NCBI RefSeq assembly: GCF_002287075.1
Contig: NZ_NSKE01000001.1
Coordinates: 124,001-188,000, forward strand
Direction: 5' to 3'
Origin: Fodinibius salipaludis
GTDB taxonomy: Bacteria; Bacteroidota; Rhodothermia; Balneolales; Balneolaceae
DNA: 64,000 nt
The notes beneath the pieces are model-generated. The model had not been told where the DNA came from. It made no database searches and saw only the letters and a list, made by a program, of their open reading frames with translations. Numbering within the stretch: position 1 is the stretch's first letter; the number at the start of each line of letters is the position of its first letter. Positions 50,039 through 60,148 of this stretch are shown one piece after another. Made by a program: the position numbers and the translations under genes.

Positions 50039-51427
50039 ATGAAAAACTTCAAGAATACCAAAACTTTCTTTAATCTGTTCCTGCTCTTAGTCATATTTGT
50101 ATTTAGCTCTGCCTGCTCTCAACAGTCAAAGTCACAGACCAACCAATTAACTACGGAGGCAAGTGAATTTCAACATCCTGAGTGGGCTAAAAATGCAACA
50201 ATTTACGAAGTGAATGTTCGCCAGTATACACCTGAGGGTACTTTTGATGCTTTTGAAGAACATATTCCCCGGCTAAAAAAAATGGGGATAGAAGTTTTAT
50301 GGTTAATGCCCATCCATCCTATTGGAGAAAAAAACCGGAAGGGTAAATTAGGGAGTTACTATTCTATAAAGGATTACAAGGCGGTTAACTCCGAATTCGG
50401 TACTATTCAAGACTTAAAAGAGTTAGTCAAAACAGCTCACGAAAATGATATGAAAGTTATCTTAGACTGGGTAGCTAATCATACTGCATGGGATCATATT
50501 TGGACTAAAAAACATCCTGGATGGTATACTAAAGATGAAAATGGGAATTTTCAGCCTCCTATCGAAGATTGGTCCGACGTTATTGAATTGGATTTTGACA
50601 ATCACGAAATGCGTGATGCCATGGTAAATGCCATGGAATTCTGGGTAAAAGAAGCCAATATTGATGGTTATCGTGCTGATTATGCGATGGATGTACCTAC
50701 GGAATTTTGGAACCGTGCACGTGAAGAGTTAGATCAGATCAAACCCGTTTTTATGTTGGCCGAAGCAGAACAATCTGATCATCATAATAAGGCTTTTGAT
50801 ATGAGCTATGCCTGGAAATTCCATGAACTGACCAATGAGATTGCACATGACAGTGCCGGTCCAAAAGATATCGACCAATACATGGCTTGGGAAGATTCTA
50901 CTTTTCCAAACCACGCATATAGAATGTACTTTACTTCCAACCACGATGAAAACTCATGGAATGGTACAGCAGTAGAACGTTATGGGCCTGCATTAAAAGC
51001 TATGGCAGTATTAACCAGTACCATTGATGGTATGCCTCTTGTTTACAGTGGTCAAGAAACCCGTATCAATAAACGACTAGAATTCTTTCAAAGAGACACT
51101 ATTCGTTGGGAAGGTTCTGAACTAGATGAGTTTTACACAAAACTTCTTCAATTAAATCAAAATAATTCTGCTCTTTGGAATGGAAAGGCCGGTGGAGATT
51201 TTGTAAGAGTAAACACTAACAATAAAAATGAAATTTATGCCTATAAACGTGTTAAAAATAATAATGAAGTTTTTGTACTACTTAATCTAAGTGATCAAAA
51301 ACAAACTGTAACACTTAAGGATTTCCCTAACACCACTTACACCGATGTATTTTCTGAGAGTAATCTAGAAATTGGAGAGGAACCCATTGATATGGATCCG
51401 TGGGGCTATCGAGTTTTAAAGAAGTAG
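50039..51427 (+). CDS. GH13 alpha-amylase-family lipoprotein (tandem copy 1)
   Basis: 462 residues with a lipoprotein signal (VFSSACSQQS). The GH13 regions are intact: VILDWVANHT (region I), IDGYRADYAMD (region II, nucleophile Asp), FMLAEAEQSD (region III, acid Glu) and YFTSNHDENS (region IV). The C-terminal beta domain ends PWGYRVLKK. The compact barrel without extra modules suggests an oligosaccharide-active amylase. It shares long identical runs with the next gene and with 60193-61575. Confidence 0.9.
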   Translation: MKNFKNTKTFFNLFLLLVIFVFSSACSQQSKSQTNQLTTEASEFQHPEWAKNATIYEVNVRQYTPEGTFDAFEEHIPRLKKMGIEVLWLMPIHPIGEKNRKGKLGSYYSIKDYKAVNSEFGTIQDLKELVKTAHENDMKVILDWVANHTAWDHIWTKKHPGWYTKDENGNFQPPIEDWSDVIELDFDNHEMRDAMVNAMEFWVKEANIDGYRADYAMDVPTEFWNRAREELDQIKPVFMLAEAEQSDHHNKAFDMSYAWKFHELTNEIAHDSAGPKDIDQYMAWEDSTFPNHAYRMYFTSNHDENSWNGTAVERYGPALKAMAVLTSTIDGMPLVYSGQETRINKRLEFFQRDTIRWEGSELDEFYTKLLQLNQNNSALWNGKAGGDFVRVNTNNKNEIYAYKRVKNNNEVFVLLNLSDQKQTVTLKDFPNTTYTDVFSESNLEIGEEPIDMDPWGYRVLKK

Positions 51428-51472
51428 CACCAAAATTAAAAATTTACCTATATCTTGCTACGAGGTGATACC

Positions 51473-52852
51473 ATGAAATTGAATAAGCCAATACTTCTTT
51501 TAGTATCGTTTTTAATTATTCTGGGTGGATGTAATACAAGCACAGAACCAACCCGATCTGATGATGACGATACCGAAGAACCTATCTCCTATTCACCAGT
51601 AGAACATCCGGAGTGGGCAAATAATGCTACCATCTATGAAGTAAATATTCGTCAATATTCACAGGAAGGAACCTTTGACGCTTTTACTGAAGATATCCCT
51701 CGTTTAAAAGAGATGGGAGTTGAAGTATTGTGGTTAATGCCTATTCATCCAATTGGTGAAGAGAACAGGCTAGGTGAACTCGGTAGCTACTACTCTGTTC
51801 AAGATTTCGGAGAAGTTAACCCTGAATTCGGTTCTAAAGAAGATCTTCGAGAACTGGTCCAAACAGCCCATAACAATGATATGAAAGTTATTTTAGACTG
51901 GGTAGCTAATCACACCGCGTGGGATCATGTATGGACTGAATCTAATCCTGATTGGTATACAAAGGATGAAAACGGGAATTTTGTTACTCCGCAAGATTGG
52001 TCTGATGTAATTGAGCTAAATTACAACATAGAAGACATGCGTGATGAAATGGTTGATGAAATGAGTTATTGGGTTGAAGAGTTTAATATTGATGGATTTC
52101 GTGCAGATTTTGCCAGCGGTGTACCTATGGATTTCTGGAACCGAGTAAGACATGACCTTAACGAAATCAAGCCAACCTTTTTACTTGCGGAAGCAGAGGA
52201 GCCTGAATTCCATGAGCATGCTTTCGATATGTCCTACGCTTGGAGTTTTCCCAATCTAACTCATCAAATTGCTGATGGGAATGCCGGTCCCAATGCAATC
52301 CATACCTACATGTTGAACGAGCAAGATCAGTTTGATAATTCTGATTATCGGATGTATTACACAAGTAATCACGACATAAATTCATGGGAAAATTCTGCAG
52401 TTGATCGATATGGTCCTGCTCTAGAAACGATGGCTGTATTAGCAAGTACCCTGAATGGCATGCCATTAGTGTATAATGGCCAAGAAGCACGTATAGACGA
52501 AGAACTTGCATTCTTCCAAAAAGACCAAATTGAATGGAGCGGTTATGAACTTGAAGAGTTTTACACTAAGCTTCTTCAGCTAAATCAAAATAATCCTGCT
52601 TTATGGAATGGAGAAGCTGGGGGGAACTATGAAAGAATAAGTACAAATAACAGTAATATTTTCGCTTTTAGACGTGTGAAAGAAGAAAATGAAGTTTTGG
52701 TTCTTCTAAATCTAAGTGACCAGAGTCAAACCGTCACTTTACAAGACATAGAATCAACAACCTATACAGATATTTTTGCAGAATCAGAATTCACCATAAA
52801 TAGTGATCCTATTGAATTAAGTTCTTGGGATTATTTGGTACTGGAAAAATAA
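51473..52852 (+). CDS. GH13 alpha-amylase-family lipoprotein (tandem copy 2)
   Basis: The ATG at 51473 has a real Shine-Dalgarno (GAGGTGAT, 5 nt upstream), unusual in this window; an in-frame TTG at 51455 is rejected. About 459 residues, lipoprotein signal (ILGGCNTSTEP) followed by an acidic stretch (RSDDDDTEE), as in surface-exported lipoproteins. GH13 regions: VILDWVANHT, IDGFRADFASG, FLLAEAEEPE and YYTSNHDINS, catalytic triad intact. A clear tandem duplicate of the previous gene. Terminator follows. Confidence 0.9.
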   Translation: MKLNKPILLLVSFLIILGGCNTSTEPTRSDDDDTEEPISYSPVEHPEWANNATIYEVNIRQYSQEGTFDAFTEDIPRLKEMGVEVLWLMPIHPIGEENRLGELGSYYSVQDFGEVNPEFGSKEDLRELVQTAHNNDMKVILDWVANHTAWDHVWTESNPDWYTKDENGNFVTPQDWSDVIELNYNIEDMRDEMVDEMSYWVEEFNIDGFRADFASGVPMDFWNRVRHDLNEIKPTFLLAEAEEPEFHEHAFDMSYAWSFPNLTHQIADGNAGPNAIHTYMLNEQDQFDNSDYRMYYTSNHDINSWENSAVDRYGPALETMAVLASTLNGMPLVYNGQEARIDEELAFFQKDQIEWSGYELEEFYTKLLQLNQNNPALWNGEAGGNYERISTNNSNIFAFRRVKEENEVLVLLNLSDQSQTVTLQDIESTTYTDIFAESEFTINSDPIELSSWDYLVLEK

Positions 52853-56268: not shown

Positions 56269-58131
56269 ATGCAACGTATAACCCGCTTTCTATTATTAAC
56301 TGCATTTGCCTTATTATTTGGATTCACCTCAAGCCATGCCCAGGATTATGCCATTGAGCGCGTCGAACCCCTCCACTGGTGGGTAGGGATGGAGAATCCC
56401 GAGCTGCAAGTCATGGTCTACGGTGATGATGTTGGGGACCTCTCTCCTGCTGTTGATTATGATGGAGTAACTATTAAGCGCATCCAAAAAGTAGAAAACG
56501 ATAACTACCTGTTTGTGTATCTGAATATCTCCAAAGATACCAAGCCCGGAACCTTTGATATTGCCCTCTTAAAGGATGGAAAACAGGAGCTTAGCCACAC
56601 TTATGAGCTCAAAGAACGGGAGCAACATTCAGCGCAGCGAGAAGGGTTCAACTCCTCAGACGTGATGTACCTGATTACCCCCGATCGTTTTGCGAACGGC
56701 AATCCCAGTAACGACAGCGTAGCGGGATATGCAGATAGCCTCGACAGAGATGACGACTATGGACGTCATGGCGGGGATATTCAGGGTATTATTGACCATC
56801 TCGATTATATTGAAGATATGGGTTTTACGGCCATCTGGCTCAATCCTGTGAAAGAGAATGCGATGGAAAGCTCCTCCTACCACGGTTATGCCACTACGGA
56901 TTATTACAAAGTGGATCCGCGGTACGGCAGCAACGAGCTCTATAAAAAACTAAGCAAAGAAGCTGAAAAACGAGACATTAAGCTGATCATGGATATGATT
57001 ATGAATCACTCGGGCTCTAACCACTGGTGGATGGATGATCTGCCAACCGAGGACTGGGTGCATTATCCGGATGAGTATCAGCAAACCAATCACCGCCGAA
57101 CCACCCTGCATGATCCCTATGCCTCGGAAAAGGATAAGAACGTATTTACCGATGGATGGTTCGTCAAATCGATGCCGGATCTGAATCAGGATAATCCCCT
57201 GCTGGCTGACTACCTGATTTACAACAGTTTGTGGTGGATTGAATATGCCGGACTGCAAGGCATTCGTCACGATACACATCCTTACGCCGGACAGGAATTT
57301 ATGGCTGAGTGGACGTGCCGTATCATGGAAGAATATCCCAACTTTAATATTGTGGGCGAAGAATGGTCCGTTGATCCGTTGGTATTATCTAAATGGCAGC
57401 GCGGAAGCGACAAACCCGAGAACTTTAGCTCTTGCCTGCCCAGCCTGATGGACTTCCCTATCCAGACTACCCTTGTCGATGCTCTAACCAGTGAAGAAAA
57501 CTGGGGCAGCGGATTCGTTGATCTTTATGAGACCTTGAGCTTAGACTATGCATACGCAAATCCCTTTAACATGGTGATCTTTCCTGAAAATCACGATATG
57601 GATCGCTTTTATCGCCAGGTGAATCAGGACTTAGACCTGTATAAAATGGGATTGGCCTATATCATGACGATACGCGGTATTCCCCAGTTCTATTACGGTA
57701 CTGAGCTGTTGATGAGCAATGAAAAAGAACACGATCACGGACAAATTCGGGAGGATTTTCCCGGCGGATGGGAAAGTGATACTAAAAATGGTTTTACCGG
57801 TAAAGGGCTATCTGATAAGCAAAGAGAAGCAAAAGCATTTGTAAAGAAGCTGGTCAACTGGCGTAAAGAAAATCCTGTTATTCATACCGGTGAACTGATG
57901 CAGTACGCCCCCAAACATGATGGCCTTTATGTATATTTTCGTTATAACGAAGAAAAATCAGTGATGGTGGCATTCAATAAAAGCGAAGAAGCAATGTCCT
58001 TAGATAGCGATTACTATTACGAGCGACTCGATGGTTATACAAAGGGAACGGACATCATTACAGATAAAACCTATATGTTAAATGATCTCGAGATTCCAGC
58101 TCGATCGGTACTCATCCTGGAATTAAAATAA
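56269..58131 (+). CDS. GH13 cyclomaltodextrinase/neopullulanase (SusA-like)
   Basis: 620 residues with a signal peptide (GFTSSHAQ) and no lipobox, so periplasmic. N-terminal cyclomaltodextrinase-type beta domain (AIERVEPLHWWVGMENPELQ), then a GH13 barrel: DVMYLITPDRFANGNPSNDS, HLDYIEDMGFTAIWLNPV, LIMDMIMNHSGSNHWW, GLQGIRHDTHPYAGQEF (nucleophile Asp), NIVGEEWSVDP (acid Glu) and VIFPENHDMDRFYRQ, then a C-terminal beta domain ending DLEIPARSVLILELK. It would cut imported maltodextrins or cyclodextrins to maltose. A strong terminator follows, then a decayed second copy of its 3' end at 58389. Confidence 0.93.
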   Translation: MQRITRFLLLTAFALLFGFTSSHAQDYAIERVEPLHWWVGMENPELQVMVYGDDVGDLSPAVDYDGVTIKRIQKVENDNYLFVYLNISKDTKPGTFDIALLKDGKQELSHTYELKEREQHSAQREGFNSSDVMYLITPDRFANGNPSNDSVAGYADSLDRDDDYGRHGGDIQGIIDHLDYIEDMGFTAIWLNPVKENAMESSSYHGYATTDYYKVDPRYGSNELYKKLSKEAEKRDIKLIMDMIMNHSGSNHWWMDDLPTEDWVHYPDEYQQTNHRRTTLHDPYASEKDKNVFTDGWFVKSMPDLNQDNPLLADYLIYNSLWWIEYAGLQGIRHDTHPYAGQEFMAEWTCRIMEEYPNFNIVGEEWSVDPLVLSKWQRGSDKPENFSSCLPSLMDFPIQTTLVDALTSEENWGSGFVDLYETLSLDYAYANPFNMVIFPENHDMDRFYRQVNQDLDLYKMGLAYIMTIRGIPQFYYGTELLMSNEKEHDHGQIREDFPGGWESDTKNGFTGKGLSDKQREAKAFVKKLVNWRKENPVIHTGELMQYAPKHDGLYVYFRYNEEKSVMVAFNKSEEAMSLDSDYYYERLDGYTKGTDIITDKTYMLNDLEIPARSVLILELK

Positions 58132-58181
58132 TCGTAGATTAGAGTGGTACTCTGATCAAGGCAGATCAAAGTTAAAGATTG

Positions 58182-58215
58182 AATGCCCGGCACTTTAAAA
58201 GTGCCGGGCATTTGT
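58182..58215 (+). terminator. Strong rho-independent terminator after the SusA-like gene
   Basis: 14-bp perfect stem AATGCCCGGCACTT / AAGTGCCGGGCATT with a TAA loop, then TTGTCTTT. A second smaller hairpin (GATTAGAGT-ggt-ACTCTGATC, 58137-58157) precedes it. This hairpin pair is repeated in altered form at 58459-58532. Confidence 0.9.
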
Positions 58216-58388
58216 CTTTGGGATCAACTCATCCTTTCATAATCTACTTTTTACCGGTTTCGGCAGTAGGGGTACGGAAACGATGGAAGATATCTCGTTG
58301 CATAGCTCGACTATGGAACGAAAAGAGCCCTAACAACTATATCTCTCTTATTCTTTTGGTTCCGCACCAGAGGTACGGAACCAGATAA

Positions 58389-58451
58389 ACCTATACTCTC
58401 GATAATCTCGAAATCCCGGCTCGATGGGTACTTATCTTAGAATTGGAATAA
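58389..58451 (+). pseudogene. Remnant of a second SusA-like GH13 gene (last 20 codons)
   Basis: Reads TYTLDNLEIPARWVLILELE then TAA, against TYMLNDLEIPARSVLILELK at the end of the intact gene (58069-58131). One A is missing just before (GATAAACC against GATAAAACC), which breaks the frame at 58386-58388. Only the gene end plus its two downstream hairpins is left. Confidence 0.9.
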
Positions 58452-58458
58452 AGCTGTA

Positions 58459-58479
58459 GATCGGAGTGCCACTCCGATC
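58459..58479. repeat. Duplicate post-gene hairpin with compensating changes
   Basis: GATCGGAGT-gcc-ACTCCGATC, a perfect 9-bp stem. The matching hairpin after the intact gene is GATTAGAGT-ggt-ACTCTGATC (58137-58157). The two stems differ at several positions, but pairing is kept or improved. Confidence 0.8.
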
Positions 58480-58497
58480 AAGCCCGAATAAAATTAA

Positions 58498-58532
58498 AAC
58501 ATCCTGCACTTTTATAGTGCAGGATGTTTTTT
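58498..58532. terminator. Bidirectional rho-independent terminator (convergent gene ends)
   Basis: 13-bp stem AACATCCTGCACT / AGTGCAGGATGTT with a TTTAT loop. TTTTTTG follows on the plus strand, and TTTTAATTTT follows on the minus strand. It sits between the GH13 remnant and the MFS gene end and can serve both directions. Confidence 0.88.
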
Positions 58533-58582
58533 GTTGATTCTCAAAAAAAAGAATATAAAACCTGTTGGCTCAAATATATAAA

Positions 58583-60148
58583 TTATTCCGCTGGCTCAAT
58601 GGCTTCACTTGATTCATTCATTTCCTGAGCAGCTTTATCATCCACAAAAATCATCATTAGTGCTGCAAAGGCCATTGCTCCGCCTCCTGCTATGAGGGCA
58701 AAAATTGCTTCGCCGTTAAAGAGATTTCTGAGCATCGTCCCTAAAATACTGGCAGCCACAATCTGGGGTATCACGATGAAGAAATTAAAAAGTCCCATAT
58801 ACACGCCCATCTTCTTTGAGGGAATAGCTCCGGAAAGAATTGCATACGGCATGGCTAAGATACTGCCCCAAGCTATACCGATTCCTAACATGGGAAGAAT
58901 CAACATCATCGGATCACTTATCAGGTAGATACTCGCAAGGCTTATTCCTCCAATCAATAAAGAAATGGCATGTACAATCTTACGGCTTGTCAATTTAGCA
59001 AAGTACGGTAAGGCAAATGCAATAAGAGCTGCAAAACCATTGTAGATAGCAAATAGGATTCCCACCCAATCAGCACCTTCATTGTAAAGTACCGAGGTAG
59101 TATCGCTTGTCCCGTACACATGAGAAGTTACGGCCGCCGTGGTATAGATCCACATGGCAAATAGTGCAAACCATGAGAAAAACTGCACAGCCGAAAGCTG
59201 AACCATCGTTTTCGGCATATTTAAGAAATCAGAAACTACAACAACTAAACCGTGCTCGTCCTTATCCAGCACTTTTTGCATAAATCCGGCTACGCCCATT
59301 ACCAGTCCAAACACAGCTACGCCAATACTGAATATATATAACTCTTGCTCAAAATTGGCTCCGTAAATATAATATGTTAAAGCTAATCCGACCCCTATTA
59401 GAATTGAGGCAGCCGTTAATTTCCGCTTGGCATTACCTGTATCAACAGCCTCCTTGGCAGCATCAATGATTGAACCTTCGCCCGGCTCGTTCTCTGAATA
59501 CCGCTCCAACTCTTCGGGAGGATATTCTTCGGTCTTAAAGACTGTCCAAAGTACCGAGCCCAGAAATGTAATCCCACCAATGTAAAACGACCATTTAACT
59601 GCAGCGGGAATCTCTCCTGGCGCAGCGGTGTTCGACAATCCAATCCAATTTGTCATGATATAAGGTAATGCCGATGCAATAACAGCTCCCGTACCAATAA
59701 AGAAAGTCTGCATGGCAAAACCCTTGGTATGCTGTTCAGCGGGAAGCATATCCCCTACAAAAGCGCGAAACGGCTCCATCGAAATATTGATAGAGGCGTC
59801 CATAATCCAGAGCATACCGGCCGCCACCCAGAGAACGGGCGAATTAGGCATAATAATCAGCGCCAATGAGGCAAAAATAGCTCCAACCAAGAAATACGGC
59901 CTTCTACGTCCGAAACTATTCCAGGTTTTGTCGCTAAGGTGACCAATAATGGGTTGCACAACCAAACCTGTGACGGGAGCGGCAATCCAAAGGATGGGAA
60001 TATCATCAACGCTGGCGCCGAGCGTTTCGAAGATACGGCTGACGTTTGCGTTTTGGAGAGCAAATCCAAATTGGATGCCCAAAAACCCAAAACTCATATT
60101 CCATATTTCCCAAAAACTTAATCTCGGCTTTTCATTTTTCTTATTCAT
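58583..60148 (-). CDS. MFS sugar transporter, SLC45/maltose type
   Basis: 521 residues with about 12 membrane segments. The N-terminal pattern MSFGFLGIQFGFALQNANVS, QPIIGHLSDKTWNSFGRRRP followed by YFLVGAI is characteristic of the SLC45-like sucrose/maltose proton symporters of Bacteroidota (often called MalT). The central loop (about residues 205-245) is acidic, and the C-terminus is an acidic tail (SSEAIEPAE). Last gene of the GH65-GH13-MFS operon, 44 bp after the GH13. It would move maltose into the cytoplasm for GH65. Confidence 0.88.
   Translation of the reverse strand: MNKKNEKPRLSFWEIWNMSFGFLGIQFGFALQNANVSRIFETLGASVDDIPILWIAAPVTGLVVQPIIGHLSDKTWNSFGRRRPYFLVGAIFASLALIIMPNSPVLWVAAGMLWIMDASINISMEPFRAFVGDMLPAEQHTKGFAMQTFFIGTGAVIASALPYIMTNWIGLSNTAAPGEIPAAVKWSFYIGGITFLGSVLWTVFKTEEYPPEELERYSENEPGEGSIIDAAKEAVDTGNAKRKLTAASILIGVGLALTYYIYGANFEQELYIFSIGVAVFGLVMGVAGFMQKVLDKDEHGLVVVVSDFLNMPKTMVQLSAVQFFSWFALFAMWIYTTAAVTSHVYGTSDTTSVLYNEGADWVGILFAIYNGFAALIAFALPYFAKLTSRKIVHAISLLIGGISLASIYLISDPMMLILPMLGIGIAWGSILAMPYAILSGAIPSKKMGVYMGLFNFFIVIPQIVAASILGTMLRNLFNGEAIFALIAGGGAMAFAALMMIFVDDKAAQEMNESSEAIEPAE

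Follow-up and report, generated by a model that had tools for sequence, protein, structure and literature searches.

A repeated susA gene end and its putative double-hairpin terminator in Fodinibius salipaludis: a possible recombination scar

In Fodinibius salipaludis the end of a susA-like gene, together with the two hairpins behind it, is present twice before the converging gene for a sugar transporter; by its named relatives the genome belongs to Fodinibius/Aliifodinibius (Balneolales). The stretch of DNA analysed (the window, 64,000 nt, contig NZ_NSKE01000001.1, positions 124,001 to 188,000 of the forward strand; coordinates given without a contig or locus name are positions within it) carries the intact susA on the + strand at 56269-58131, a GH13 gene of the cyclomaltodextrinase/neopullulanase type (open reading frame (ORF) call; Pfam PF09087, PF00128 and PF10438), and on the - strand at 58583-60148 a major facilitator superfamily (MFS) sugar transporter gene (ORF call and Pfam; NCBIfam matches lie below cut-off). 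We read the second susA end as a recombination scar with a working terminator rather than as what is left of a lost twin gene, and put the probability of this reading at roughly one half.

The repeat is evident from both alignment and translation. Copy 1 comprises the final 20 codons and the stop codon of the intact gene (58067-58131, + strand), and 58387-58451 aligns with it at 77% identity over 65 nt without a gap, at a spacing of 320; the similarity carries on through both hairpins, the full repeat covering 58067-58212 (copy 1) and 58387-58528 (copy 2). When the last 72 nt of susA were compared with the gene's own spacer the score was 203, the best of 60 shuffles giving 84. The coding remnant in copy 2 (the relic, 58384-58451, + strand) is dead: it retains the last 20 codons and stop codon of a second susA 3' end, verified by its translation TYTLDNLEIPARWVLILELE, but is startless and lacks one base just upstream (AGATAAACC as against AGATAAAACC). 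The missing base is a small correction to an earlier, sequence-only reading of the window, which had claimed that the gene end and two hairpins recur about 320 bp downstream and that the second gene part is down to 20 codons; on both of these points it was right.

Behind copy 1 lie hairpin H1 (58137-58157, arms 58137-58145/58149-58157; 9 bp, a 3-nt loop and one G-U pair) and hairpin H2 with its GCCCGGCAC stem (58182-58212, arms 58182-58196/58198-58212), both on the + strand, H2 having a weak T-tract behind it and not being called as a terminator. Their counterparts in copy 2, from folding and a count of pairing, are H1' (58459-58479, + strand, arms 58459-58467/58471-58479) and H2' (58496-58530), the latter intrinsic-terminator-like on both strands. 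The two 89-nt hairpin stretches fold with z-scores of -7.3 and -8.2 relative to shuffles. Covariation was counted over three sequences only (copy 1, copy 2 and the orthologue in the relative G004), an alignment in which 95.5% of cells are paired. Five stem pairs are changed on both sides, a number reached by 7 of 500 shuffles, and six slid controls give 0; the number of further pair types is ordinary (103/500 shuffles). All five double changes set copy 1 apart from copy 2; four lie in H2 and one in H1, where one more pair differs on a single side (U-G in copy 1, C-G in copy 2). Both hairpins have thus persisted with different bases and intact pairing, as had been claimed.

A terminator scan of 57900-58800 called H2' as its sole site, on both strands (two found; shuffles mean 0.9, sd 0.9), and at 58496-58530 a stable hairpin is followed by a T-rich run on the + and on the - strand, which is what defines a bidirectional intrinsic terminator. 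The silence of the scan on copy 1 is weak evidence, because the H2-type stems of G004 and of another relative, G002, escape it likewise. No known RNA family was found in 57900-58800. Of the further suggestion that the double-hairpin end was retained, perhaps to terminate the MFS unit, the first part agrees with the kept pairing; use of H2' by the converging MFS gene is plausible and fits the both-strand site, and we infer that it is used as a terminator in the cell. The hairpin CCCGGCACTTTAAAAGTGCCGGG (58182-58212; also loci L035-L051) and close variants of it are found throughout the genus behind unrelated genes, as though a particular terminator sequence were favoured there.

The arrangement at susA has counterparts elsewhere. 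In the genome G003, taken as Fodinibius halophilus, the 1.4-kb gap between susA and the MFS gene holds a susA 3'-end relic in register with its stop codon (score 109; 0/4000 shuffles reach this, maximum 95), with a hairpin before and after it. Because this relic is nearer to its own gene (28/36 positions) than to copy 2 of the window (25/36; counted by hand with one extra base omitted), it and the relic of the window's own genome (G000) look like separate events. It falls below the threshold of the wide scan described below and rests on comparisons at the level of the locus. In G002, G004, G007, G008, G009 and G010 a search for older relics gave no match of gene tail to own spacer above shuffles; the match of the G010 tail to the G002 spacer (0/200 shuffles) was one of 42 such tests and was not built on.

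For the wide scan the last 120 nt of mechanically called ORFs of at least 90 aa were searched for extragenic copies within 3 kb downstream (1350 ends in 1.664 Mb of G000 and 313 ends in 0.419 Mb of G003), and matches overlapping an ORF of at least 90 aa were set aside, being mostly tandem paralogues (13 of 18 at 112 or above in an earlier, smaller scan). Three of the 1350 gene ends in G000 have an extragenic relic, namely menB, a lipoprotein gene and susA (scores 334, 263 and 201), the highest of 3283 mismatched controls being 120; all three relics end at the stop codon and show 75-77% identity over the aligned part. One further match, in G003 (score 123), is short of the stop and near the control maximum, and is not counted. 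A control scan of gene starts gave extragenic matches at or above threshold for 4 of 1659, at G000 C34 (304), G003 C1:232734 (220), G000 C12:378153 (175) and G003 C1:373161 (136); the second and third of these start exactly where the start codon does, so that 3' ends are not the only gene parts to leave relics. G000 also contains, at C34:21590-23251, an apparent shrunken tandem copy of a gene that we take to be transposase-like; it retains 5' and 3' parts, unlike the 3'-only relics.

At three of these places the repeated gene end flanks inserted DNA. The frameshifted menB relic of G000 (contig C1, 3' of menB; L280 2964-3157) lies beyond an ORF of 159 aa (ORF159, L280 2461-2940; no Pfam match), for which the 1.5 kb downstream of menB gave no match in any of the 11 other genus genomes; at the joint of the relic, half of the terminator hairpin that stands beside the next gene in G002 and G008 seems to be fused to the interior of menB, at or near CGCA. 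The lipoprotein-like TPR gene is followed by mscS (PF00924) and then by the 3' relic of the first gene (L247 1521-4088, which is G000 C23:141521-144088). Only G009 among the 11 other genus genomes has this gene pair (91% and 86% identity), with no comparable relic (best tail match 74), and the lipoprotein gene is absent at E<=1e-40 from the other 10. Over 72 nt, 8 of the 11 differences between the lipoprotein relic and its gene are at third codon positions (by eye), a bias such as a diverged allele would show. The third case is in G011, where two small ORFs separate menB from a relic of menB (score 590) that lies about 714-859 nt behind the gene on the reverse strand of L290, with a terminator-like hairpin directly after the relic. 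At susA there is the duplication only. The order gene, insert, gene end fits recombination with incoming DNA, being what such recombination leaves. All five relics lie between convergent genes (the baseline is 418 of 1349 G000 gene ends), although only three loci are independent in kind, and a hairpin stands behind four of them, the lipoprotein relic having none. The 90 nt behind the relic and the 90 nt behind the intact gene were both folded in four cases, and each time the relic side was the more stable (-42.0 vs -41.2, -26.1 vs -13.1, -15.8 vs -10.4 and -21.4 vs -12.9 kcal/mol), which fits the relic side carrying the original terminator and new DNA having been placed between gene and terminator.

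On the reading that we favour, incoming DNA from a related cell would have carried the 3' end of a susA allele with its double-hairpin terminator and some flank, and would have been joined to the chromosome by homology on one side and by an illegitimate joint on the other, either by single crossover of the Campbell type, with a joined-up fragment, or by homology-facilitated illegitimate recombination (HFIR). The product would be an intact susA followed by its terminator and spacer and, next to the MFS gene, by a shortened susA end that has a second terminator; the hairpins behind the relic would have stayed under selection because they would form the bidirectional terminator of two converging units. 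We infer both the incoming DNA as source and this order of events. The susA locus is, to judge from its trees, one that recombines. Judged against gyrA (G008 gave no rpoB), the tree of susA shows a conflicting grouping (approximately unbiased (AU) test, p 0.02), and within the MFS gene of G000 a stretch on the - strand at 58819-59644 has foreign ancestry (24/28 informative sites inside vs 38/164 outside, 0/1000 permutations; AU p 0.004 for the MFS body, the tract having been chosen after viewing windows). When G003 was compared with its sister genome, G010, over both susA and the MFS gene, no clear switch was seen. The foreign MFS tract was considered as the far side of the relic event and rejected, as it does not extend to the relic.

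Two observations on the GH13 genes stand apart from this. The susA of Fodinibius shares 54-58% identity with genes from Cytophagales and from some other Bacteroidota but 44-52% with those of most other members of its order (59-63% for G025 and G031), which suggests that it may be an old horizontal acquisition. The window also holds a tandem GH13 pair at 50039-52852 (genes at 50039 and 51455); the 20-kb stretches compared from the seven other genus genomes with susA gave nothing but cross-matches of the pair to another GH13 gene.

Several results weigh against a recombination scar of this kind. No foreign gene lies between the susA copies. The spacer (58213-58356) is local in type, since 58250-58353 aligns with the susA-MFS spacer of G002 (score 121; 0/300 shuffles reach this, maximum 95), and the insert is only this spacer and a palindrome of the repetitive extragenic palindromic (REP) kind. 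There is no clear micro-homology at the susA joint. The foreign MFS tract ends about 370 bp short of the relic stop codon and 58583-58818 looks native, so that we do not claim tract and relic as one event. Copy 1 and copy 2 group together weakly (42/0), and with so weak a grouping a foreign source of either is not shown. For the menB relic of G011 an outside donor is unneeded, because that relic is closest to its own gene (sister to it, 97/98). The hairpins behind the relics other than the susA relic of G000 are ordinary, ranking 38, 66 and 75 among 200 convergent gene ends. The differences between copy 1 and copy 2 by codon position (5, 2 and 8, of 21 each) suit a diverged allele and neutral decay alike: copy 1 against the functional orthologue of G008 gives 5, 2 and 9, nearly the same pattern, and the menB relic, with 12, 8 and 26, indicates that decay can give a pattern like that of copy 2. 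An argument for a long coding life of the susA relic from the ratio of non-synonymous to synonymous changes (dN/dS) was therefore dropped. Finally, two genomes hold further GH13 genes. The converging MFS gene is the next gene after susA in seven of the eight genus genomes with susA; in the exception, G007, the gap between them holds a distant GH13 gene (598 aa, L138 6382-8178, MFS strand) only 25% identical to SusA, along with what is presumably a pabB-like gene and two others. G057, of the same order but another family, has two full-length susA matches (46% and 48%) on different contigs. Neither exception is a tandem copy.

With nothing but spacer and REP palindrome between the susA copies, and with copy 2 grouping weakly with copy 1, the strongest rival is an internal segmental duplication: a piece of about 320 bp, made up of no more than the 3' end, the terminator and the spacer, would have been copied in tandem within the lineage, by slippage or short-repeat recombination, and have diverged with hairpin pairing kept. 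Of the tails compared, that of copy 1 is indeed the closest to copy 2 (76.2%, as against 66.7-71.4% for G002, G004 and G008), and the local spacer, the sister relationship of the G011 menB relic to its own menB and a codon-position divergence compatible with neutral decay all agree with such a history. It leaves unexplained, however, the inserted genes that separate menB and the lipoprotein gene from their relics, and the reading frame of copy 2 is intact over 63 nt at 24% divergence. We regard this explanation as a serious one but distinctly less probable than a recombination scar.

The sequence-only reading had proposed a lost tandem paralogue; on that view a complete second susA once stood behind the first and was deleted except for its last 20 codons and its terminator. 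The relic does translate into a credible SusA C-terminus and ends in a stop codon, the locus has tandem GH13 genes, a shrunken tandem copy of another gene seems present in G000 (the C34 case above), and G057 has its two susA-like matches, if on separate contigs. The search for relatives with an intact second gene at this place found none in the genus, in the family (92 genomes) or among 79 named loci. At E<=1e-100, 8 of the 12 genus genomes (counting that of the window) have exactly one susA, as do 61 of the 92 family genomes, and none has two. Of the named loci 64 had hits at E<=1e-30 (one locus with two rows was a split hit of one gene) and none of these had a second match of at least 38% over 150 aa, many of the loci being short. 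As susA is thus single in all 61 susA-bearing family genomes, the living witness to be expected of a tandem second gene was not found, and the proposal is not supported. Moreover, coexistence long enough for 24% divergence predicts that pairs should be commoner than relics, whereas among the eight genus genomes we saw no pairs and two relics. A comparison of the spacer (58213-58380) with the gene and its upstream region gave no other piece of susA (41/300 shuffles score as high), and relics of unrelated genes (menB and the lipoprotein gene) with whole genes in between are not explained by loss of a paralogue. A lost twin therefore seems doubtful, somewhat more so than internal duplication.

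The palindrome in the insert (58357-58383, core GGTTCCGCACCAGAGGTACGGAACC) lies directly at the 5' edge of the relic, and a weaker relative is found at 58259-58286. Its pattern TTCCGNACCnnnGGTNCGGAA has 5 exact sites in G000 and 12 with two mismatches or fewer, a control pattern having 0; they include C34:80674, C34:80733, C34:136605 and C34:136671, and some form close pairs. One such pair adjoins a gene for a REP-associated tyrosine transposase (C34:80062-80595; NF047646, 102.6 bits, cut-off 80), so that G000 has the extragenic palindrome, the several copies and the REP transposase that characterize REP elements. That this transposase mobilized the palindrome, and that the palindrome carried in or captured the gene end, for instance by transposing together with neighbouring DNA, is very improbable in spite of the abutting position, the copy number and the nearby transposase, because no such REP occurs within 50 nt before the other four relics and G003, which has a susA relic, has no copy of the palindrome. 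Strong hairpins at all relic joints were also considered as a common cause and rejected, since only the two susA joints have them; 8-12% of 378 baseline windows fold as strongly as these.

Beyond the single locus, we put forward tentatively, and as unlikely on present evidence to hold in full, that in Fodinibius new genes have repeatedly been slotted behind certain genes by insertion-duplication, so that the host gene stays intact while the 3' end and terminator that it first had come to lie beyond the newcomer; susA and menB would then be recurrent docking places, used independently in two species each, with selection for the terminator between convergent genes preserving the scar. The mechanism itself is already known, and it is the recurrence across genes and species that merits a systematic look. 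The signature (a gene, an insert and then that gene's dead end, in many cases followed by a terminator) is searchable; such scars would mark gene additions and may pass for lost paralogues. The double hairpin also offers a natural experiment on a small scale, one terminator having diverged between its two copies with pairing kept.

In the literature we found the mechanisms described and nothing on this locus, which is no proof of absence. Bidirectional intrinsic terminators occur between convergent genes, and the hairpin between susA and the MFS gene resembles them in being flanked by T-runs on both sides; the difference is that here the terminator is doubled, with a dead gene end before the second one. 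Work on insertion-duplication and HFIR is said to include that of de Vries and Wackernagel 2002 and other transformation studies. In one such report, on lacZ integrations in Escherichia coli, duplication of the gene end by single crossover was detected by polymerase chain reaction in 56/60 clones and measured 109-950 bp in the 14 sequenced, and HFIR is described as having one homologous and one illegitimate side, with micro-homology of 3-10 bp in most cases (PMC3240628). The likeness is the partial gene-end duplication flanking integrated DNA, and the differences are that the Fodinibius event would be old and is reconstructed from genomes, and that the susA insert is only spacer. The merodiploids described for Streptococcus pneumoniae transformation (PMC3784515) are similar in being tandem partial duplications through exchange of homologous DNA; theirs arise by unequal crossing-over between repeats, and here the repeated piece is about 320 bp. 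With REP sequences and their associated tyrosine transposases, as portrayed in PMC3116915 and PMC8266576, the locus shares a short, multi-copy extragenic palindrome, close pairs and a transposase gene near one of them, but the copies here are few (12 with two mismatches or fewer) and only the position at the relic edge bears on the finding.

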